DNA of 64,000 nt from Acidobacteriota bacterium. Lineage in GTDB: Bacteria > Acidobacteriota > UBA890 > WLXD01. Where the stretch lies: positions 310,001 through 374,000 of the forward strand of contig WLXD01000001.1 of the NCBI GenBank assembly GCA_012103255.1. Reading direction: 5' to 3'. Below the pieces are notes generated by a model. The model ran no database searches. It was not told where the DNA came from and saw only the letters and a program-made list of their open reading frames with translations. Positions 39,150 to 51,264 of this stretch are shown piece by piece (position 1 is the stretch's first letter; the number at the start of each line of letters is the position of its first letter). The position numbers and the translations under genes were made by a program.

Positions 39150-40157
39150 CTAGGATACCTCTGCCGCTTCACGACCACGCGCGCGGATCCACTCCACGAC
39201 AGGGCCCAGACCCTGATCATCCATCGCCGACACCTCCGCGTAGTCGATGCCTTCTTCCTCGGCGGTTGCTCTGAGAACCGCAAGGCGCTCTGCGTCGGGA
39301 TCAAGATCAACTTTGTTGGCCACCAGAATGCGCGGCCGCTCAAGTAATTCGGACTCGTACGCCTCGAGTTCGCGGCAGACTTCGCGATAGTGATCGATGG
39401 GCTCGCCCTCCAGAGTGGCCGCGTCCACCATGACCACCAACGCCTGGGTGCGCTCGATGTGCCGAAGGAAGGTAAGCCCCAACCCTTCGCCTCGGTGCGC
39501 TCCCTCGATCAAACCGGGTACATCCGCCATCACCGCGCGCTCGTACTCGCCGAGATCGAGCACGCCGAGATTCGGACTGATCGTCGTGAACGGATACGGC
39601 GCGACCTTGCCCTTGGAGCCGGTGAGCGTTCGCAGCAGCGTGGTCTTGCCTGCGTTGGGTCTCCCCACGAGGCCGATCGCGGCGATCAGTTTCAGCTCGA
39701 AGCGAAGGTTCTTCTCCTCACCCGGCAGCCCGGGCTGCGCGTGGCGCGGTGCCTGCCGGGTCGGCGTGGCGAAGCGCGCGTTGCCGCGGCCACCGATGCC
39801 GCCCACCACGGGAACTAGCTTCTCGCCTGGCTGTCCGAGGTCGGCGAGCTGCTCGTCGGTGTCCGCGTCGTACACGAGGGTGCCGGGTGGCACTGGAACC
39901 TCAACGTCGCCGCCGTTGCGCCCGTGACGCTTGTTGCTCTCGCCGGGATTCCCGTGTTCGGCCTTGAACAGCTGGTTGTCGCGGAAGTCGCCCAGATGAT
40001 TGATCGCGCGATCGCAGACGATTCGTACGCTGCCGCCATCGCCGCCGTCCCCGCCATCGGGTCCACCGAAGGGTACGTACTTCTCGCGGCGAAACGACAC
40101 AGAGCCGCGACCACCGTTGCCGGATTGCACACGGATTCTGACGATGTCGCGGAACAT
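39150..40157 (-). CDS. obgE: Obg family GTPase
   Basis: 335 residues. Glycine-rich Obg domain (GGDGGDGGSV) and G domain with GRPNAGKTTLL, DVPGLIEGA and ANKVDLD. It functions in ribosome maturation and stringent control. It follows rpmA in the conserved rplU-rpmA-obgE order. Confidence 0.96.
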   Translation of the reverse strand: MFRDIVRIRVQSGNGGRGSVSFRREKYVPFGGPDGGDGGDGGSVRIVCDRAINHLGDFRDNQLFKAEHGNPGESNKRHGRNGGDVEVPVPPGTLVYDADTDEQLADLGQPGEKLVPVVGGIGGRGNARFATPTRQAPRHAQPGLPGEEKNLRFELKLIAAIGLVGRPNAGKTTLLRTLTGSKGKVAPYPFTTISPNLGVLDLGEYERAVMADVPGLIEGAHRGEGLGLTFLRHIERTQALVVMVDAATLEGEPIDHYREVCRELEAYESELLERPRILVANKVDLDPDAERLAVLRATAEEEGIDYAEVSAMDDQGLGPVVEWIRARGREAAEVS

Positions 40158-40453: not shown

Positions 40454-40816
40454 TTACTCCTCTTCGTCCGCGGCGGCCGGAGTCGCCTTCTTGGCGGCCT
40501 TCGCCTTCGGCGCAACGATCTCGTCGATCTGCAGCGCGGTGAACGTCTGACGGTGTCCGATGCGCCGGCGGTAGCCTTTGCGGCGCTTCTTCTTGAAAGC
40601 GATGACCTTGGCGCCGCGGTCGGAGTCGACCACAGTCGCGTTGACCTTCGCGCCCTTGACGGTGGGCGTACCGACGTGGACGGCGTCCTCGGTGGTAACC
40701 ATCGCGGCGTCCATGGAGACCTTGCTGCCGACCTCGTCGTCCAGCTTCTCCACGCGCACGATGTCACCCTCGGAAACGCGGTACTGCTTACCACCGGTTT
40801 CGATAACGGCGTACAT
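40454..40816 (-). CDS. rplU: 50S ribosomal protein L21
   Basis: 120 residues, starting YAVIETGGKQYRV, with KKRRKGYRRRIGHRQ near the centre and an Ala/Lys-rich acidic tail. Three bases separate it from rpmA. Its leader holds two stable hairpins. Confidence 0.97.
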   Translation of the reverse strand: MYAVIETGGKQYRVSEGDIVRVEKLDDEVGSKVSMDAAMVTTEDAVHVGTPTVKGAKVNATVVDSDRGAKVIAFKKKRRKGYRRRIGHRQTFTALQIDEIVAPKAKAAKKATPAAADEEE

Positions 40817-40953: not shown

Positions 40954-41065
40954 GCCACCTCAACACGAGTCCACGCTTTCTACCCAGCCGGCGCGCCAAT
41001 TGAAACCCTGGCCGTGTTTGCCGCGTCTAATGAGATATACGCCCCCAAAGCTCACAGGTGTGCCC

Positions 41066-41833
41066 ATGCGCAAAGGTCTTCTCGCCGCTGCCGCCGTCGC
41101 AGCGCTCGTCGTCTCGTCCCCCGTTCTCGCGCAGCGCTGCGAACATTCGCGCGACCTTGATCTGTCGACGGGTGCCGGCGGCGCCGATCTGGCGGTGATC
41201 ATCGCTGAGGCCGGTGACCTGCGGGTCGAGGGCGGAAGCGGTAGCGAAATTGTCATCAGCGGCCGCGTATGTGCATCCACGCAAGATCGACTCGACGCGA
41301 CGACCGTCACACTCGATACGCGCGGCGACCGCGTAGAGATCGAGACCGAAATGCCCGACTCGAACTGGAGCTGGTTAGGCAGCAACTACGCCTACATCGA
41401 CCTCGTTGTACGCGTGCCAGAGAACCTCGCGGTACGCATCGAAGATGGCTCCGGCAACATGACCGTGAGCAACGTTGCCGCCGCCACGATTGATGATGGC
41501 TCGGGGAACATCGATATTCGCAACGTCCGCGGTGAACTTTCCGTCGACGACGGCTCCGGCAACATCGATATCGTCGGCGCCGGCGAGGTCTGGGTAGACG
41601 ACGGTTCCGGCAACATCGATGTGCGCGACGCGGGCGAGGTCACGATCGACGACGACGGCTCGGGGAACATCGACATCGAGAACGTATCGGGCTCCGTGCT
41701 CGTCGGCTCGGACGGCTCCGGCAGCATCTATGTATCGTCGGTCCAGGGCGACTTCACGGTTCGTAGAGACGGCTCGGGCGGCATCCGACACAACGACGTG
41801 AGCGGCACAGTCGACATCCCGCGGAAGCGCTAG
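41066..41833 (+). CDS. Secreted DUF4097-like repeat protein
   Basis: 255 residues with signal peptide 1-22. From about residue 122 onward seven units carry DGSGN or a close variant (DGSGS, DGSGG) roughly every 18-20 residues, each followed by IDI/IDV-type strands, giving a regular right-handed beta-helix or solenoid. DUF4097 'putative adhesins' have this look. No catalytic residue is evident. ATG at 41066; it is divergent from rplU. Confidence 0.65.
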   Translation: MRKGLLAAAAVAALVVSSPVLAQRCEHSRDLDLSTGAGGADLAVIIAEAGDLRVEGGSGSEIVISGRVCASTQDRLDATTVTLDTRGDRVEIETEMPDSNWSWLGSNYAYIDLVVRVPENLAVRIEDGSGNMTVSNVAAATIDDGSGNIDIRNVRGELSVDDGSGNIDIVGAGEVWVDDGSGNIDVRDAGEVTIDDDGSGNIDIENVSGSVLVGSDGSGSIYVSSVQGDFTVRRDGSGGIRHNDVSGTVDIPRKR

Positions 41834-42508: not shown

Positions 42509-43279
42509 CTACCCCTCGTCGCCGGGCCGGAGCGTCAGTTTTTCGAGCGTCCGGCCTCGCGTTTCGAGTTCGCCCATGCGCCGGGCCATCTCGTCGAGGC
42601 GAGCCTGCATCTGTTGTAGATCCAGGCGTGCGTTGGTGAGCTCCACGACTAGATTGTGCGCGAGCTGCAGCGAGCGCTCGTGGCGCTCCTCGAGAGTGCC
42701 GCGCGTGATCGACATGTGCCCGGCGGCCCAGTCGGCGGTGCGATCGATGCGACTGTCGAGGTTGTCTTTCAGCACATCGAAGCTGCGTTCGAGTCGCTGC
42801 TCGAGCGCGGCGAGGTCGCGTTCGGTAGTGGCCACCATTTCGCGTGAATAGTCCTGTTGTTGAACCAGGACGTCTTCGAGATTGGTCGTGCTGTGAAACA
42901 CCGTGCGGGCAATGCGCCTCAGCACACCCAGGAGCCGTCCCTTCAGGCCGCCGCTACCGGTCTCCCAGAGAGAGGCCATGTCGGGTGCAGCTCGTTGGGA
43001 ACCCAGTTCCTCGCTGCGGTCGCGCGATGGTGCGGATGCCGAATGAGCTTCTGGAATCGACGGCGCCTCGACCAGTCGGCCGCGCACATCCGCCAGCTCT
43101 TCAGTCAGGCCACGCGGCAGATCTTCGCGCCGCAGCCTCGGGCGCAGCGGCGTATCCCGTAGCCGCGCCAGATCCTCGTCGCTGAAGCGCGTCCCGCGCT
43201 TCGACTCGATGGCCGCCTCGACGCGCGCCTCGAGCGCAGCGACGTCGATGTCCGAACCTTCGATACGAAACTTCCCCAC
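42509..43279 (-). CDS. Hypothetical coiled-coil protein
   Basis: 256 residues. The N-terminus reads KFRIEGSDIDVAALEARVEAAIESK, a short conserved-looking head, followed by an unstructured central part and a long helical, coiled-coil C-terminal half (about 125-250). No TM segment. GGAGGAGG precedes the GTG start. Function not recognised. Confidence 0.55.
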   Translation of the reverse strand: MGKFRIEGSDIDVAALEARVEAAIESKRGTRFSDEDLARLRDTPLRPRLRREDLPRGLTEELADVRGRLVEAPSIPEAHSASAPSRDRSEELGSQRAAPDMASLWETGSGGLKGRLLGVLRRIARTVFHSTTNLEDVLVQQQDYSREMVATTERDLAALEQRLERSFDVLKDNLDSRIDRTADWAAGHMSITRGTLEERHERSLQLAHNLVVELTNARLDLQQMQARLDEMARRMGELETRGRTLEKLTLRPGDEG

Positions 43280-43387: not shown

Positions 43388-46312
43388 CTAGAACAGAGGT
43401 CCGATGTAGAACTGGAACCGCGGGTTGCCTTCCAGCGTCTGGAAGTCCGTGCGCTGCGCCCAGAAGAACCACAACGGCAGGCCAACGAAGTTCACACCCA
43501 CGCCAACACCGAACGATGCCAGTGCGTCTTCCAGGCTGCCGTCGAGCGTGAAGTTGAAGTCGTCACCCTTGAACCAGGCAGCCCCAACATCGGCAAACAC
43601 CAGGCCGCGGATGTTGCGGATCGCGAAGTCTCCGGCGCGTGCCTCGAAGATCAGCGGGAACCGGTACTCGAGATTCACGAGTGCCGCGCGATTGCCCGAG
43701 AACCGGAGGTAGTCGTAGCCACGCAGCTGGTTCAGCCCGCCAATGAAGAACACCGACGGATGGTCGCCGAAACTTCCCGCGCCCCACGCGCGGAACGCGA
43801 GTTGGCTGTCCTTGCTGACCTGGATGTACTGCCGGAAGTCGACGGTCACGTCATAGAAGTTGATCGTTCCGGTGCCGGGCGGGGCCGCCTCGACTCCAAG
43901 ACTCAGGCGCCGGCCGGCGTAGGGTCCGTATTCCTTGAACCGCGCCTTGTCGCCGATCAGCTTCACTCCGACCTTTCCGTAGTTGCCGCTATGGAACTGC
44001 TCGGAAAAGCGCACGAGCTCGCCGCTCGAACTCTCGAGGATGAACCCGGACGGGACGTACTCGCGACGGTAGTAGCCAAGCGAGAACTCGGCACGCCAGT
44101 CGCGGGTGAACGGATAATCGGCGAACACTTCGCCGCCATCCAGCTCGAAGCTCGAGTTGCGGTTGATCCCACCGTTGAGGTCCTGGGTGAAGAAGAACGA
44201 GCGCTGACTGGTGAGGAGCGCACCCCAGTTCCAGCGACTGGACTGATTGCGATACACACCCGTGTAGTTACGCTGGCTCTCCACAGAACCCAGAATCGCC
44301 TGGATCTGCTGGGTGCCCATCAAGTTCTGGAACTCGATGTAGGTGTTGGTGAGCACCGTTCCGCCGAACGATCCGACGCTGTAGCCACCCGCAATCTGAA
44401 TCGCCGAGATATGCCAACCGCCGCCGGCCGACTGGGTCTTGTTCTGGTCGGTAAGTTCGACGCTGGCGAGTGCCGCAGCCTCGTCTTCGATGCGGTCGAT
44501 CTCTACGTCTTCGATCGCTTCGTCCACGGCCACGAACGTCTCGACAGGCTCAGGCAGGTCCATCGCGTAGAGGTCGTAGAAGCCGTCGCTGAAACTGCTA
44601 AACAGCAGTTCGCCGGTTTCCTCGACTTCGTGCGGGAAGAACGCACCGTGCAGGATGTTCGTGTAGCGACTCACGGTCTCGGTCGCGAGCTCCATCGAGT
44701 ACAGGTTGTGCTCGCCGGTGCGGTCCGACACGAAGTAGACCTTCGAACCGTCCTTGGAGAACGACGGCTGCGTGTCGCCGTACAACCCAAAGGTGAGCTG
44801 GACACGCTGCTGCGGACGCGACAGGTCGATCCTGAACAGTTTCTTGTGGCCGAGCACGTGCGACGCGAAGATGATGCTCTGCCCGTCCGGTGACCACACC
44901 GGTGCGTAGTCGTAGAAGTCGTCCTGGGTCAGATTGGACAGCGTCTCGGTGGTCGGATCGAACAGGTAGATGTCGCGGATGCCGTTTTCATGTGCGGCGA
45001 AAACGACCCGGTTGTCGGGGCCGACATTGGGCGACAATGCCTGATCCAGCTCGGTCTTGAACTTGGTCCGCACGTTGCCGGTTTCAGTCTCCACCACGAA
45101 CAAGGTTCGCGTCGGCGGCGTTCGTGCGAAGAACGCCAGCAGCGAGCCGTCGTTCGAATAGGTCAGGTCGTTGCCCGCCTGGAAGCCGACGGTCACCCCT
45201 TGACCGATGATGTATTCGAACTGACCGTGCAGTCCGCCCGTGAGATTCCGGCGCGTGTCGCCGGTCTCGATGTCGAACGAGTAGATGTCGACCTGCTGGG
45301 TTTTGCTGTTGATCGACACCGCGGCGAACTCGTCGCCACGCGGCGAAACGACCGGGCTAAAGGCAGGTTGGCGATCCTCGAAGGCCACGTTGCTGAAGAT
45401 GCCGCGGGCAAAGTCGGGGGCTTCGCTCTTATCCAGCACGTTCGGCAGGTAGCGGTCCCGGAGCCACTCACGGAAGTCCGTGTTGAACTCGTTCGGCGTG
45501 ATGTTGAAGGCCCGCTCGAGGTCACGCTCGATGTCCTGGCCCAGGTCACGGCGAATCTCGGAAAGGAAGATGCGGACGCCTTCCGTGCCGTATTCCTCTT
45601 CGATGTACGCCCACACGACCTCGCCAAGAACGTAGCTATTGAAGAACGAGTCGAAGTAGCTCATTTGGATGAGCGTCGGGATGTCGTCCGCCAGGACCTT
45701 GTCCCGGAGCATCATCTCGTCAAGCGTGGTCAGGTTGTCCGCCATGTACTCGGCGAAGCCTTCCATCACCCAGCCAGGGGGCTGCGCTCTCAGCGCGCCG
45801 CTCAGGCGGTTACCAAAGAAGTAGTCGAACTCGAAGAGGTGCGCCACCTCGTGAACCATCAGCAGGTGGAGCTGGTCCGGCGGGTCATCGACCGGCAACA
45901 CGAGTCGGTTCTGCGTGGGCTCGGCGAACGCTGCGACACCTTCCGGCAGGAAGAACGGCAGCACGTGAGTCTGCTGAAAGTCCTGGTGGGTCTGGTAGAA
46001 GATGATTGGCATCCGCTCGGAGAGCTGATGGTTCATCGTCCGCGAGATCTTCGCGTAGGCGGCCTCGGCAAACGCCACGACCTCGTCGAGGTGTTGCTCC
46101 TCTTCCGGGTAGTAGTAGACGTCGAAGTGCGGCGCCGAGTACTTCCAGAAGTCGAACGACTCGTACGTGACCTTGTTCTGGCCGAAGTACGACGAGTACG
46201 GCGTGTTGTTGAACTGAGCGTGGGCCTCAGGCGCGACGCCGGCCACGATCACCGTGGTCAGCAAGAGCGCGCACGTGAGAATCCGGTCGCGGGTCTGGGA
46301 TGGGCTTCGCAT
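43388..46312 (-). CDS. Peptidase / WD40-like propeller / Omp85-type barrel fusion
   Basis: 974 residues with signal peptide 1-32. Part 1 (about 33-300) is a gluzincin-like peptidase with HEVAH (154-158) and a downstream E in WVMEGFAEYM. Part 2 (about 310-620) carries PD40/TolB-type propeller blades such as PVWSPDGQSIIFAS and PSFSKDGSKVYFVSD. Part 3 (about 660-974) is an Omp85/surface-antigen-like beta barrel ending in Phe (YIGPLF), the outer-membrane signature. It is an outer-membrane protein with periplasmic or surface-exposed soluble domains; peptidase activity is inferred. Confidence 0.8.
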   Translation of the reverse strand: MRSPSQTRDRILTCALLLTTVIVAGVAPEAHAQFNNTPYSSYFGQNKVTYESFDFWKYSAPHFDVYYYPEEEQHLDEVVAFAEAAYAKISRTMNHQLSERMPIIFYQTHQDFQQTHVLPFFLPEGVAAFAEPTQNRLVLPVDDPPDQLHLLMVHEVAHLFEFDYFFGNRLSGALRAQPPGWVMEGFAEYMADNLTTLDEMMLRDKVLADDIPTLIQMSYFDSFFNSYVLGEVVWAYIEEEYGTEGVRIFLSEIRRDLGQDIERDLERAFNITPNEFNTDFREWLRDRYLPNVLDKSEAPDFARGIFSNVAFEDRQPAFSPVVSPRGDEFAAVSINSKTQQVDIYSFDIETGDTRRNLTGGLHGQFEYIIGQGVTVGFQAGNDLTYSNDGSLLAFFARTPPTRTLFVVETETGNVRTKFKTELDQALSPNVGPDNRVVFAAHENGIRDIYLFDPTTETLSNLTQDDFYDYAPVWSPDGQSIIFASHVLGHKKLFRIDLSRPQQRVQLTFGLYGDTQPSFSKDGSKVYFVSDRTGEHNLYSMELATETVSRYTNILHGAFFPHEVEETGELLFSSFSDGFYDLYAMDLPEPVETFVAVDEAIEDVEIDRIEDEAAALASVELTDQNKTQSAGGGWHISAIQIAGGYSVGSFGGTVLTNTYIEFQNLMGTQQIQAILGSVESQRNYTGVYRNQSSRWNWGALLTSQRSFFFTQDLNGGINRNSSFELDGGEVFADYPFTRDWRAEFSLGYYRREYVPSGFILESSSGELVRFSEQFHSGNYGKVGVKLIGDKARFKEYGPYAGRRLSLGVEAAPPGTGTINFYDVTVDFRQYIQVSKDSQLAFRAWGAGSFGDHPSVFFIGGLNQLRGYDYLRFSGNRAALVNLEYRFPLIFEARAGDFAIRNIRGLVFADVGAAWFKGDDFNFTLDGSLEDALASFGVGVGVNFVGLPLWFFWAQRTDFQTLEGNPRFQFYIGPLF

Positions 46313-46331: not shown

Positions 46332-47387
46332 TCAGTAGATCAGGTAGCGACTCTGCTCTGAGCGACGGGGGGTGATGGTCTCGAGTAGTTGGGGCAGCAT
46401 GCGTTCAAGGGTCTCGAAGACGGCCTCCTGGTTCGAAACGCCTTCCTCGACGGGGTAGGAAGCCTCGGACTCAAGCGTCTGCTCCACGAGCCGTTCGCCG
46501 TCTTCTCCGCGGAGGACGACAACGTCGAACGTGATCTTGTAAGTCACGACGTCCTGGAACCGGGCGACTTCACGAATCTGGCCGTCTGGCGAGCGAATCC
46601 GTTCGCGCACCATCTGTGACTCCTGTTCGGTGCTCAACCCGATGGTGCCGGTGAGCACCAGGTCCGCCTCGGACGATGCCGCACGCTCGACCCAGTAGTC
46701 GGCGTTGTCGAAGACTTCTTCGCCGCGCGATGCGGGATCCATGGGCGCTTCGAGTTGATCCTGCGTCTCGTAGAAAGTTCGCTGCGTGATCCGCCGCCGG
46801 AAGTAACGCACCGCGAAGTCGTTGATATTCGACTCTGTCTCCTCGGCCGGAACGAAGTTCCCAACCAGGAGGCGGTTGTAGCCAGCGAGATTCGGGCCTT
46901 GATCGGGCACCGATACGATGATCTCCAGGACGCCGACTGCGGCCGTCTGGCCCTCGGGAAACTCGTCCAGAGGCATGTCGATCAACTTGTCGTCATCCAT
47001 CGAACCGCTCGAGATCCGCTCCCAGATCGGCGCGAACTGGCGATTGTTGCGATCGACGTAGAAGTGCTCGGCCGGCGTCGCCGCGACCAGCGCCTTGTCG
47101 TAGTAGTCCTTCGCGGCCTCGAACTCCCCGTCTCGCTCGTGCTGAACGGCGAGGTTGTTCAGCGCACGCGCGTTCATCTCGGCGATGGCAAGAGCTTTCA
47201 GCCAGCGGAACTGCGCTTCCTCCCAGTAACCCTGGTCGGCAGCGAACACGCCTTCCTGCGCCTGGTTCTTGCCACGCTCGACCGGCGCGGTGGCACATCC
47301 AGCCGCGACAAACAGGAGCACGAGAATCAAGGTGACGGGCCGGCTCACGGCCGACCGGAGCACCTGCTGAGAGAACTCAGAAGACAT
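46332..47387 (-). CDS. TPR-containing lipoprotein
   Basis: 351 residues with lipobox FVAAGC (Cys31). A TPR-like segment follows (ALNNLAVQHERDGEFEAAKDYYDKAL). The C-terminal half is beta-rich with no recognised domain. It is 19 bases upstream of the fusion protein gene on the same strand and probably works with it at the envelope. ATG at 47387 chosen because it begins the signal peptide. Confidence 0.7.
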   Translation of the reverse strand: MSSEFSQQVLRSAVSRPVTLILVLLFVAAGCATAPVERGKNQAQEGVFAADQGYWEEAQFRWLKALAIAEMNARALNNLAVQHERDGEFEAAKDYYDKALVAATPAEHFYVDRNNRQFAPIWERISSGSMDDDKLIDMPLDEFPEGQTAAVGVLEIIVSVPDQGPNLAGYNRLLVGNFVPAEETESNINDFAVRYFRRRITQRTFYETQDQLEAPMDPASRGEEVFDNADYWVERAASSEADLVLTGTIGLSTEQESQMVRERIRSPDGQIREVARFQDVVTYKITFDVVVLRGEDGERLVEQTLESEASYPVEEGVSNQEAVFETLERMLPQLLETITPRRSEQSRYLIY

Positions 47388-47534
47388 AGGCCTCCGACTC
47401 GTGTCGATCGGAAGAGGACGTTCGACGCGAGGGCCTGCGCCCTGACACGCCGCGGGGACCGGGGTTGCTGTCACCTCTGAGGCGACTCGGTCGAGTCTAC
47501 AGATCGCGCAGTCCGCGCTGCAAGCGTGAGCCCA

Positions 47535-47551
47535 GCGCCATCATGTGGCGC
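47535..47551 (+). promoter_or_regulatory. Leader hairpin upstream of dprA
   Basis: GCGCCA and TGGCGC form a perfect 6-bp stem with a 5-base loop in the region between the lipoprotein gene and dprA. Role unknown. Confidence 0.25.
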
Positions 47552-47609
47552 ACAACAAGACCTCGTGTCCATCTACAGCAACTCAAGGAGCCCTCCAACT
47601 CTCGCACCG

Positions 47610-48521
47610 ATGGAAGTCCCGAGCACTGAGCACCGCATACTCCGGCCTCGCGACCCGGATTATCCAGATCTGCTGCGGGCAATCCGCGACGTGCCCGAGA
47701 CCCTCTATGTCGCAGGGTGCGTGGAACAAACGCCGCGGGTCGCTCTGGTGGGCTCCAGGGCGTGTACTCGATACGGGCGCGAAGTGGCCTATGAACTGGC
47801 CGCCGCCCTGGCGCGCCGTGGCGTGAGCGTGGTGTCGGGGCTGGCTCGGGGTATCGACGCGGCGGCCCACGAAGGCGCGCTCTCGGTCGATGGCCACACG
47901 GTCGCCGTGCTACCGGGCGGCGTCGATCCTGTCTATCCCGCGCGTCATCGCAGCCTCAGCGTTCGCATTCGTCGCCGCGGAGCGTTGGTAGCCGAACGCG
48001 AACTCGGTTCTGGCATTGCCCCGTGGCATTTCCCTCGCCGCAATCGAATCATCGCCGGCCTCAGCGAGGTGATCGTCGTGGTTGAGGCTGCAGCCCGGAG
48101 CGGAGCGAGAATCACGGCGGACCTCGGACTCGCCGAGGGGCGTGACGTTCTGGTCGTCCCCGGCCCCATCACGTCTCGCACCAGCGTCGGCTGCCACCAA
48201 CTCATCGCAGCCGGAGCGTTCCCGATCACCGGCGTCGATGACATCCTCGATCACCTCGGTGAGACCCTGGTCCCGCCGGATTCGCGTGCGTCAACGAGCC
48301 CTCCTGAGGCCGAAGAATTGGCGCCCAGCGAGCGCCAACTGTTCGATGCACTCGCCACTGGAGATGCCCGTTCGCTTGACGAACTGGCCGTTACCCTCGA
48401 TCTTCCGGTAGGCGTGCTGTTGGTGGCAGCGACCGGTCTGGAGATCCGCGGGCTGGCTTTGCTACTACCGGGCAACCGGATCGAGGCGCGCCATGGACAC
48501 GATGGGCGCTGGCCGGAATAA
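47610..48521 (+). CDS. dprA: DNA-processing protein DprA
   Basis: 303 residues from ATG at 47610. Rossmann-like core: VALVGSRACTRYG, VSGLARGIDAAAHEGAL, VAVLPGGVDPVYP, then a C-terminal winged-helix region. It loads RecA on incoming DNA in transformation. Compared with DprA of about 360 residues, the N-terminal SAM-like domain is shortened. GTG at 47526 is an alternative start. Confidence 0.9.
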   Translation: MEVPSTEHRILRPRDPDYPDLLRAIRDVPETLYVAGCVEQTPRVALVGSRACTRYGREVAYELAAALARRGVSVVSGLARGIDAAAHEGALSVDGHTVAVLPGGVDPVYPARHRSLSVRIRRRGALVAERELGSGIAPWHFPRRNRIIAGLSEVIVVVEAAARSGARITADLGLAEGRDVLVVPGPITSRTSVGCHQLIAAGAFPITGVDDILDHLGETLVPPDSRASTSPPEAEELAPSERQLFDALATGDARSLDELAVTLDLPVGVLLVAATGLEIRGLALLLPGNRIEARHGHDGRWPE

Positions 48522-48579: not shown

Positions 48580-51264
48580 ATGCCGAAACGCCTCGTTATC
48601 GTTGAGTCGCCAACCAAGGCGCGCACTCTCTCGCAATATCTCGGTGACGACTTCATCGTCGAATCGAGTGTCGGCCACGTGCGCGACCTGCCATCCAACG
48701 CCTCAGAGGTGCCCAAGGCTTACCGCGGTACCGATGTCGGCCGGCTGGGGGTGGACGTCGAACAGGACTTCGCTCCCCTCTATGTAGTGCAAACCGCGAA
48801 GAAGTCCACCATCACCGCGCTTCGCGCGGCGCTCAAGGAGTCCGACGAGCTCCTGCTCGCGACTGATGAAGATCGCGAGGGTGAAGCGATCAGCCAGCAT
48901 CTCGTCGAGGTGCTCAAGCCGAAGGTTCCCGTGAAGCGGATGGTCTTCCACGAGATCACCCGTGCGGCGATCCTCGAGTCGCTGGAGCAGACCCGCGAGA
49001 TCGACACGAACCTCGTCGAGGCACAGGAAGCACGTCGAATCATCGACCGCCTCTACGGCTATCTGGTTTCGCCCGTCCTGTGGCGCAAGGTTGCGTCGGG
49101 TCTCTCGGCCGGCCGTGTGCAGAGTGTGGCCGTGCGAATCCTGGTCGAGCGCGAGAAAGCTCGAATCCGATTCGTGGCCGCCGAGTACTGGGATCTGGTG
49201 GCGCAGTTCTCGACGAAGTCCGGCGAGACGTTCGAGGCGAAGCTCCACACACTCGATGGCCGTCGCCTGGCCACGAGCGGCAGTTTCGATCCGGACACCG
49301 GACAGCTGACTGACCCGGCGATCCGCCTGCTCAGTGGAGAGGAAGCCGGCACACTGGCCGACTCGTTGCGACCACAGGACTTCAAGGTCGCGTCGGTAGA
49401 AGAGAAGCCGCGCAAACAGCGCCCCAAGCGGCCGTTCACCACGTCGACGCTGCAGCAGGACGCCAACCGCAAGCTGGGCTTCCAGGCTCGACGGACGATG
49501 CGCGCAGCGCTGGTGCTCTACGAGAACGGGTTCATCACCTACATGCGTACAGATGCCGTGACGCTATCGAAAGAAGCCGTGGCGATGACGCGGGCGAGCA
49601 TCGAGGCGAAGTACGGCAAGGAGTATCTGCCGGACGAGCCGCGTCACTACTCCACAAAGGTGAAGAACGCGCAGGAAGCTCACGAGGCCATCCGGCCTGC
49701 AGGCAGCAGCATTCGCAGCGTCGACGAGGTCCGGAGCGCGACGGGGGCAGACGCGGCCAAGCTCTATGACCTCATCTGGAAGCGCACGATGGCTTGTCAG
49801 ATGCGCGACGCAAAGCTGCGCCAGCTCGCCATCACGGTTACCAATGCGGGCGCGCCCGACGCCGAGTTTCGGGCGAGCGGCCAGACCGTCGACTTCCCGG
49901 GTTACCTGCGCGCCTATGTGGAGGGCCGCCCCGACAAGGGCGATGCGGAGCGAGTACTCCCGGCGGTAACCGTCGACGAGGCCCTTACCCCTCTCATCGA
50001 CACCGAAGAGCACATCACCAAGCCGCCGCGACGCCTCACGGAGGCCGGCCTGATCCAGGAGCTCGAGAAATCGGGCATTGGACGGCCCAGCACCTACGCC
50101 TCGATCATCAGCACGATCGAGCGACGTGAGTACACGTTCCGCAAGGGCAACTCGCTCGTGCCGACGTTCACCGCTTTCGCTGTGGTGAATCTCATGGAGA
50201 GTCACCTGACTCACCTGATCGACACCGATTTCACTGCGCAGATGGAGAACCGTCTCGACCGGATCTCACGCGGCGAACGCGAACCACTGCCGTACTTGCG
50301 CGAGTTCTACTTCGGCAACGGCATGCCCGGCCTGAAGCCACTGCTCGAAGCGAAAGTCGACGAGATCGATCCGCGCGAGGTCTGCAGCCTGCCGTTGGGT
50401 CAGGACGAGGAAGGCCGGGACATCATCATCCGCGTCGGCCGCTACGGTCCCTTCCTGCAACGCGGGGAAACCACAGCGAACATACCGGACGGAACGTGCC
50501 CGGACGAAGTAACGATCGAGCGGGCCAGCGAACTGATCGCCCACTCGGAGAAGGCTGATGAGCCGTTGGGCAACGACCCGGACACCGACCTGCCGGTGTA
50601 CATGAAAGTCGGCCGCTACGGTCCCTACGTGCAGCTTGGCGACCCTGATCCCGAGGACAAGAAGAAGAAGCCGAAGATGGCCTCGTTGCTCAAAGGGATG
50701 AATCCCGCGGAGATCTCGCTGGACGTAGCCGTGCAGTTGCTGCAGTTCCCGAAGGTCATCGGTCAGGACGCCGACGGCAACGACATCACCGCGGCGAACG
50801 GTCGTTACGGGCCCTACATCAAGCGCGGCGACGACACCCGAAGCCTGACGGCCGACGACGACCTGCTCACGTTCACGGTCACCCGAGCCCTGGAACTGCT
50901 CGCGCAGGAAAAGAAGGGCTTCCGGCGCACGCCGACGCAGTTGAAGATCTATGAGAACGTCGAGCAGCTTGAGGGCGGCGAGATCAAGATGCTCGACGGC
51001 CGCTACGGGCCCTACGTCACCGACGGCGACGTGAACGCGTCGGTGCCGAAAGCGATGGCCGATCCGACCGCGCTGACCCTCGAGGAGGCGCTGGAACTGC
51101 TAGAGAAGCGCCGGGCTGCCGCGCCACGCCGCAAGAAGAAAAAGGCCAAGAAGAAAAAGGCCAAGCGGAAGACGAAGAAGAAGGCAGCCAAGAAAAAGAC
51201 GACCAAGAAGAAGGCTGCGAAGAAAAAGGTCGCCAAGAAAAAGGCCCCCAAGAGCGGCGAGTAG
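48580..51264 (+). CDS. topA: DNA topoisomerase I, zinc-finger-less with Lys-rich tail
   Basis: 894 residues. Toprim domain (VIVESPTKARTL, LATDEDREGEAIS), active-site Tyr near residue 321 in FITYMRTD. Instead of zinc fingers, the C-terminus holds four RYGPYxxx repeats (for example RYGPFLQ, RYGPYVQ, RYGPYIK, RYGPYVT) and then a tail of about 45 residues made almost entirely of Lys and Ala. This layout is known in Actinobacteria and related groups and increases processivity and DNA binding. Confidence 0.96.
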   Translation: MPKRLVIVESPTKARTLSQYLGDDFIVESSVGHVRDLPSNASEVPKAYRGTDVGRLGVDVEQDFAPLYVVQTAKKSTITALRAALKESDELLLATDEDREGEAISQHLVEVLKPKVPVKRMVFHEITRAAILESLEQTREIDTNLVEAQEARRIIDRLYGYLVSPVLWRKVASGLSAGRVQSVAVRILVEREKARIRFVAAEYWDLVAQFSTKSGETFEAKLHTLDGRRLATSGSFDPDTGQLTDPAIRLLSGEEAGTLADSLRPQDFKVASVEEKPRKQRPKRPFTTSTLQQDANRKLGFQARRTMRAALVLYENGFITYMRTDAVTLSKEAVAMTRASIEAKYGKEYLPDEPRHYSTKVKNAQEAHEAIRPAGSSIRSVDEVRSATGADAAKLYDLIWKRTMACQMRDAKLRQLAITVTNAGAPDAEFRASGQTVDFPGYLRAYVEGRPDKGDAERVLPAVTVDEALTPLIDTEEHITKPPRRLTEAGLIQELEKSGIGRPSTYASIISTIERREYTFRKGNSLVPTFTAFAVVNLMESHLTHLIDTDFTAQMENRLDRISRGEREPLPYLREFYFGNGMPGLKPLLEAKVDEIDPREVCSLPLGQDEEGRDIIIRVGRYGPFLQRGETTANIPDGTCPDEVTIERASELIAHSEKADEPLGNDPDTDLPVYMKVGRYGPYVQLGDPDPEDKKKKPKMASLLKGMNPAEISLDVAVQLLQFPKVIGQDADGNDITAANGRYGPYIKRGDDTRSLTADDDLLTFTVTRALELLAQEKKGFRRTPTQLKIYENVEQLEGGEIKMLDGRYGPYVTDGDVNASVPKAMADPTALTLEEALELLEKRRAAAPRRKKKKAKKKKAKRKTKKKAAKKKTTKKKAAKKKVAKKKAPKSGE

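Follow-up and report, generated by a model that had tools for sequence, protein, structure and literature searches.

What work would call for a peptidase, a propeller and an outer-membrane barrel on a single polypeptide, and on which side of the membrane would such a chain act? The question is raised by a gene at 43388..46312 on the minus strand of the window, by which we mean the whole stretch of 64,000 nucleotides of Acidobacteriota DNA that was analysed. The coding sequence (P0001) starts with an ATG preceded by AGGGAG, has no internal stop and encodes 974 amino acids, which comprise, from N to C terminus, a signal peptide, an HExxH zinc-peptidase domain, a TolB-like PD40 propeller and an Omp85-type barrel (domain borders, start sites and identities given here are approximate). 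The signal peptide is a by-eye reading of residues 1-32 (46217..46312, minus strand), which end in A-H-A and are followed by Q33, a residue kept in 8/8 class orthologues. The first-pass annotation had proposed the three-part architecture, and it holds: PD40 and Omp85 score over their Pfam cut-offs, and the HExxH set is invariant in homologues. No POTRA domain was found among the Pfam matches of the chain at E<=1. The host genome (4.8 Mb, 9 contigs) contains one full-length copy, its other matches being short propeller hits. Structure prediction for the full chain, supplied with two outside relatives (L035 and L036), returned a mean pLDDT of 33, and for the peptidase domain, supplied with the same two relatives, a mean of 38, both too low for a fold to be read.

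The peptidase domain, gluzincin-like and of the Peptidase MA kind, was placed by profile matches at residues 47-300 (45413..46174, minus strand). When the window protein was searched alone, this part had no Pfam match over cut-off; its match to Peptidase_MA_2 (PF13485), at E 5e-4 and 20.3 bits, lies below the curated cut-off of 32.4. Among the 47 members of an alignment covering the same residues (L042 was left out), 40 matched PF13485 at E<=0.1, with a best value of 2e-10, and other zinc-peptidase families matched more weakly. M48 gave no match to the chain (Pfam, E<=1) and was absent from the 24 families listed when the 47 domains were searched (E<=0.1). A PDB search with the domain profile found, with a low score (E 7e-4), 3cia, a cold-active aminopeptidase of the M1 family, in an alignment that pairs the HExxH, the downstream Glu in W-x-x-E-G and the Tyr in YxxG. 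GAMEN, a motif of M1 aminopeptidases, was not seen by eye in the domain.

The residues expected to form the active site are, on the minus strand, the HExxH motif itself (HEVAH, residues 154-158; 45839..45853), the WxxEG motif at residues 181-185 (45758..45772), in which E184 is the presumed third zinc ligand, and Y227 of the YxxG motif (45632..45634), the presumed catalytic tyrosine, which aligns with the Tyr of 3cia. H154, E155, H158, E184 and Y227 are invariant in 8/8 class orthologues, in 49/49 members of a wide set (the window, 7 class loci, 40 phylum loci and one Salinibacter plasmid protein without a barrel) and in 18/18 divergent relatives, so that the catalytic set is kept in 67/67 chains examined; the 40 phylum loci and the 18 divergent places were hand-picked from class-profile matches. 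Conservation of the HExxH in homologues was the point on which the first-pass annotation had staked its reading, and the motif has come through together with the downstream Glu and the Tyr. A decayed or chance HExxH is ruled out by the same invariance. As judged from its motifs, the catalytic set (HExxH plus downstream Glu) fits a gluzincin peptidase of the Peptidase MA clan in all 67 chains, and the fact that it was never lost argues for catalysis; the domain probably adopts a zincin fold, binds zinc and has protease activity.

The propeller (about residues 314-590; 44543..45373, minus strand) matches PD40 in Pfam at E 2e-15 and also matches the TolB profile and solved TolB structures. It is followed by the barrel (about residues 633-974; 43391..44416, minus strand), which matches the Omp85 family PF01103 over residues 722-971 (E 2.5e-13; 50.7 bits against a cut-off of 24) and ends in Phe; the terminal residue is aromatic in 48/48 Acidobacteriota chains (Phe in 45, Trp in 2 and Tyr in 1). 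Omp85 proteins share the signature [VLI]RG[YF] with a conserved Arg, which appears here as LRGY at residues 863-866 (43715..43726, minus strand). R864, E882 and R884 are invariant in the 48 chains and D908 is kept in 40/48; the surroundings of R864 vary, with LRG-Y and MRG-F forms and a minority of chains in which the RG is replaced, giving IRS or LRA. The 18 divergent chains, whose barrels were left unaligned by mafft --add and were read by motif, have VRGY or IRGY in the C-terminal region in every case (18/18). R864 and its fellow conserved barrel residues would correspond to the BamA lumen contacts, the role of R864 being carried over from BamA. By profile and signature the chain belongs to the Omp85 superfamily, and its TolB-like propeller ahead of the barrel, with no POTRA at E<=1, places it with the WD40-Omp85 kind.

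The host also has separate proteins that combine POTRA and Omp85 matches, one of them (BamA) a frame of 978 aa in which POTRA is matched five times, and a BamD match at E 6e-50, and the chain is thus an extra Omp85 machine in this cell. We rejected the possibility that it is the cell's BamA, since BamA is encoded elsewhere and the chain is without POTRA at E<=1. A full-length TolB-like protein is likewise encoded separately, with a score below the curated cut-off. The host genome (G000) gives 114 matches to the TolB propeller profile, many of them in proteins of 700-1500 aa, which amounts to a large set of PD40-propeller proteins.

Full-length matches to the chain are present in 8/9 class genomes, the exception being a genome that is 72% complete, and a class profile at E<=1e-30 matches 146/297 Acidobacteriota genomes, some of these matches being partial or of the divergent group. 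The chain is old in Acidobacteriota; 151/297 genomes have no match at this threshold, and its function is therefore not needed throughout the phylum. A scan of genome contigs with the single protein returned two close relatives only, both metagenome-assembled Acidobacteriota (isolate OFTM...). The 18 divergent chains (L122-L139), which are about 1010-1110 aa long and run peptidase-propeller-VRGY-barrel, form a sister group of their own, and in some genomes one of them is a second copy beside the main type. Beyond Acidobacteriota, the search covered a plasmid collection and viral contigs. No relative turned up when the class alignment was run against the viral contigs, and the plasmid collection yielded 20 records, the best of them a Salinibacter ruber plasmid protein with 28% identity over residues 5-579. 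This 633-aa protein of plasmid pSR116, annotated as 'basic secretory protein-like protein', has the peptidase and the propeller without a barrel; an S10 serine carboxypeptidase-like protein is encoded downstream of it (both in L072, 3995-7812).

Immediately upstream of the peptidase gene, and separated from it by 19 bp, lies a gene at 46332..47474 on the minus strand (likely start ATG at 47387) with the lipobox FVAAGC. The first-pass annotation had noted a TPR lipoprotein here, which is confirmed, and the protein is more than that: its TPR part, identified by Pfam and locus comparison, is short (47055..47288, minus strand) and is joined in the same polypeptide to a second domain, some 195 aa long (46341..46925, minus strand), that weakly resembles FlgT_M or TolB_N. 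Comparison of 48 Acidobacteriota loci, with counts anchored on an aligned residue (the L088 ORF runs far upstream of its true start), showed the two parts fused in 11 and encoded by two adjacent genes in 28, the second domain thus forming its own gene in 28/48. Among the remaining loci, one has the second domain only (at a contig edge), one has the TPR part only, with an unmatched 182-aa lipoprotein-like ORF between the TPR gene and the peptidase gene, and seven have neither, a contig end (L040) among them. The second-domain ORFs detected across the 49 loci number 40, and every one sits directly upstream of the peptidase gene. The linkage of chain and lipoprotein, which had been put forward as a check, is therefore seen in most of the 48 loci.

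In a FastTree tree of the peptidase chains, the fused cases fall into two clades, each with support 1.0, with unfused lineages between them, which implies either two or more fusion events or a single one followed by repeated splits. The six true absences of the partner form one clade (support 1.0), and L040 belongs to the first fused clade. All six genomes of this unlinked clade (6/6) keep the second domain elsewhere. Across the phylum the second domain is present in 125/297 genomes: 123 have both it and the peptidase chain, 23 the peptidase chain only (so that the domain is undetected in 23/146 genomes with the chain), 2 the domain only and 149 neither, for a Fisher p of 1.5e-56 that overstates the evidence because shared ancestry is ignored. 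Locus counts, co-occurrence and fusion clades together rule out chance adjacency of the lipoprotein and peptidase genes. The earlier suggestion that the lipoprotein likely co-acts with the chain is strengthened by the fusions of the partner's parts in two clades and by the strong co-occurrence, and the chain and the lipoproteins probably form a physical complex.

The second domain itself is less readily placed. FlgT_M (Pfam) matches 16/38 members of its alignment (A4, made without L093 and L112, whose matches were split), the best at 4e-7, and TolB_N and LpoB each match a single member (1/38 at 0.08 and 1/38 at 0.03, respectively); 'TolB_N-like' is, with so weak a match, a lead. Among solved structures no relative was convincing, the best having an E of 0.39.

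The setting of these genes suggests how the arrangement may have come about. The window pair and chain are flanked on one side by dprA (47526..48521, plus strand) and topA (48580..51264, plus strand) and on the other by rplU (40454..40816, minus strand) and obgE (39150..40157, minus strand); these names, like nadD and rsfS below, are what we take the genes to be. In 8/9 second-domain loci from genomes that are unlinked or have no peptidase chain, a pair of TPR and second-domain genes lies between topA and rplU-obgE-nadD-rsfS, with dprA beside topA in 7 of the 8, and in the window, L093 and L095 the pair and the peptidase gene occur together at the topA / rplU-obgE spot (dprA was matched in L093 and not in L095). 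The most parsimonious ancestral order is dprA/topA - TPR - second domain - peptidase chain - rplU/obgE; in one clade the gene for the peptidase chain would have left this position afterwards. Two other genes lie nearby. A secreted-looking repeat protein at 41000-41833 (plus strand), with many DDGSGNI-type repeats and LiaG/DUF2807-like, is on the strand opposite to its neighbours and is kept in the two nearest relatives, and a coiled-coil protein downstream of the peptidase chain (42509-43279, minus strand) has tblastn matches in 6/7 class loci (L037-L042; not L043) and in 0/40 phylum loci.

We propose, tentatively and with slightly less than even confidence, that the chain is an outer-membrane-anchored, periplasm-facing zinc metallopeptidase that acts with lipoprotein partners in envelope quality control. 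Its own Omp85-type barrel would anchor the metallopeptidase in the outer membrane, the peptidase and the TolB-like propeller would lie on the periplasmic side, and the chain would work with the upstream TPR lipoprotein and the second lipoprotein domain. The most likely job would be to trim or remove envelope and outer-membrane proteins that are stalled or misfolded at the membrane, with the propeller and the TPR parts choosing the clients. That the catalytic site is conserved beside a propeller and a TPR lipoprotein suggests that clients are recognised and cut at the membrane. Known TolB-like propellers are periplasmic, and taken with the layout of Omp85 proteins, in which the N-terminal domains are described as periplasmic in known cases (PMC4104836), they favour a periplasmic over a surface location. 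BepA, a zinc protease of E. coli, is described as acting on BAM, where it promotes LptD assembly or degrades stalled LptD (PMC8423444; PMC13067283), and our best reading, by analogy, likens the chain to BepA in role, not in family; together with its lipoprotein, the chain would unite functions comparable to those that BamA, BamB, BamD and BepA perform as separate proteins. The three domains, the catalytic set, the Omp85 signature and the conserved partner genes can be read from the sequence; we infer the periplasmic facing, the fold and zinc binding, the assembly of chain and lipoproteins, and the job of the chain.

It is also conceivable, if unlikely, that the chain belongs to a compact second machine for outer-membrane assembly and quality control that Acidobacteriota run beside the ordinary BAM. 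One polypeptide would then supply the BamA-like barrel, the BamB-like propeller and the BepA-like protease, the TPR lipoprotein would play the part of BamD alongside a partner resembling TolB_N, and the machine would proteolytically edit its own clients during insertion. Another reading, which we regard as doubtful, retains the anatomy and the periplasmic facing, treats the barrel as a mere anchor and has the peptidase mature or shed a single specific substrate or a handful of them, secreted or lipid-anchored. Across 47 relatives, median identity to the window chain is highest in the peptidase domain (41.7%), followed by the propeller (34.2%) and the barrel (30.9%), and the linker between propeller and barrel is barely conserved (13.5%); such a linker, a barrel less conserved than either of the other two domains and a Salinibacter homologue that does without one are what a simple anchor would predict, but the Omp85-specific residues kept in 48/48 chains exceed a plain anchor's need.

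An improbable alternative is that of a type V-like secreted enzyme, whose barrel would deliver the two N-terminal domains, peptidase and propeller, to the cell surface; such a mechanism has been proposed for PlpD, a patatin protein. The order of enzyme and then Omp85-type barrel is that of type Vd (PMC6555100; PMC4104836), but type Vd proteins have a POTRA between the two, and the combination of patatin-like enzyme and POTRA that marks them was not found in the chain (Pfam, E<=1). The conserved lipoprotein partners, and a propeller of a type that is periplasmic elsewhere, also argue against export to the surface. Quite improbable is the reading of the chain as a dedicated exporter or insertase, with the peptidase as a regulator or structural module and one client family acted on by way of the barrel. 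The Omp85 barrels known so far work as insertases or translocases, R864 and E882 are kept in 48/48 chains and a platform resembling BamA-BamB has been suggested (Heinz and Lithgow, PMC4104836), but the catalytic set was never lost in 67 chains and no gene for an outer-membrane client is linked to the peptidase chain, a lack that also counts against the quality-control reading.

With a protease as part of an Omp85 barrel, outer-membrane insertion or surveillance and proteolysis would be tied together within a single molecule; E. coli needs a separate protease that docks on BAM to make this link. The chain also provides a conserved, testable module for Acidobacteriota, a phylum whose envelope is little studied.

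How does the chain compare with systems already described? Heinz and Lithgow (2014) described ten Omp85 subfamilies, one of which, WD40-Omp85, they likened to a BamA-BamB fusion (PMC4104836); like the chain, its members have a WD40/TolB-like propeller N-terminal to an Omp85 barrel and are without POTRA. The main-section passages of that paper that were consulted, supplementary tables aside, make no mention of an HExxH peptidase or of partner genes in WD40-Omp85, and our literature search for the peptidase-propeller-Omp85 combination found nothing beyond this description. What we did not find described is the peptidase and the operon partners of a chain of WD40-Omp85 kind, the subfamily itself having been known since 2014; one of the ten subfamilies would acquire a likely enzymatic function together with two partner parts. 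PF00149 presumably stands for calcineurin-like phosphoesterases and not for peptidases with an HExxH. It is on PF00149 that the 'metalloprotease' Omp85 subfamily of the 2014 survey rests (PMC4104836).

Among enzymes, the M1 aminopeptidases (3cia) and the Peptidase MA families align with the chain at the HExxH, the Glu of W-x-x-E-G and the Tyr of YxxG; unlike M1 aminopeptidases, the chain has no GAMEN by eye, and scores are low. TolB resembles it in the propeller, which is clearly TolB-like, and weakly in the partner's FlgT_M / TolB_N-like second domain, but TolB is soluble and periplasmic whereas the chain is predicted to be barrel-anchored. The type Vd patatin autotransporters PlpD and FplA share an enzyme N-terminal to an Omp85-type barrel; they contain POTRA and a lipase and no propeller, whereas the chain has a peptidase and a propeller and no POTRA. 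BAM (BamA, BamB and BamD) together with BepA, like the system described here, combines an Omp85 barrel, a propeller, a TPR lipoprotein and a zinc peptidase. BepA belongs to M48, in contrast to the Peptidase MA kind found here, and in the Acidobacteriota system the barrel, the propeller and the peptidase, without POTRA, are one chain.
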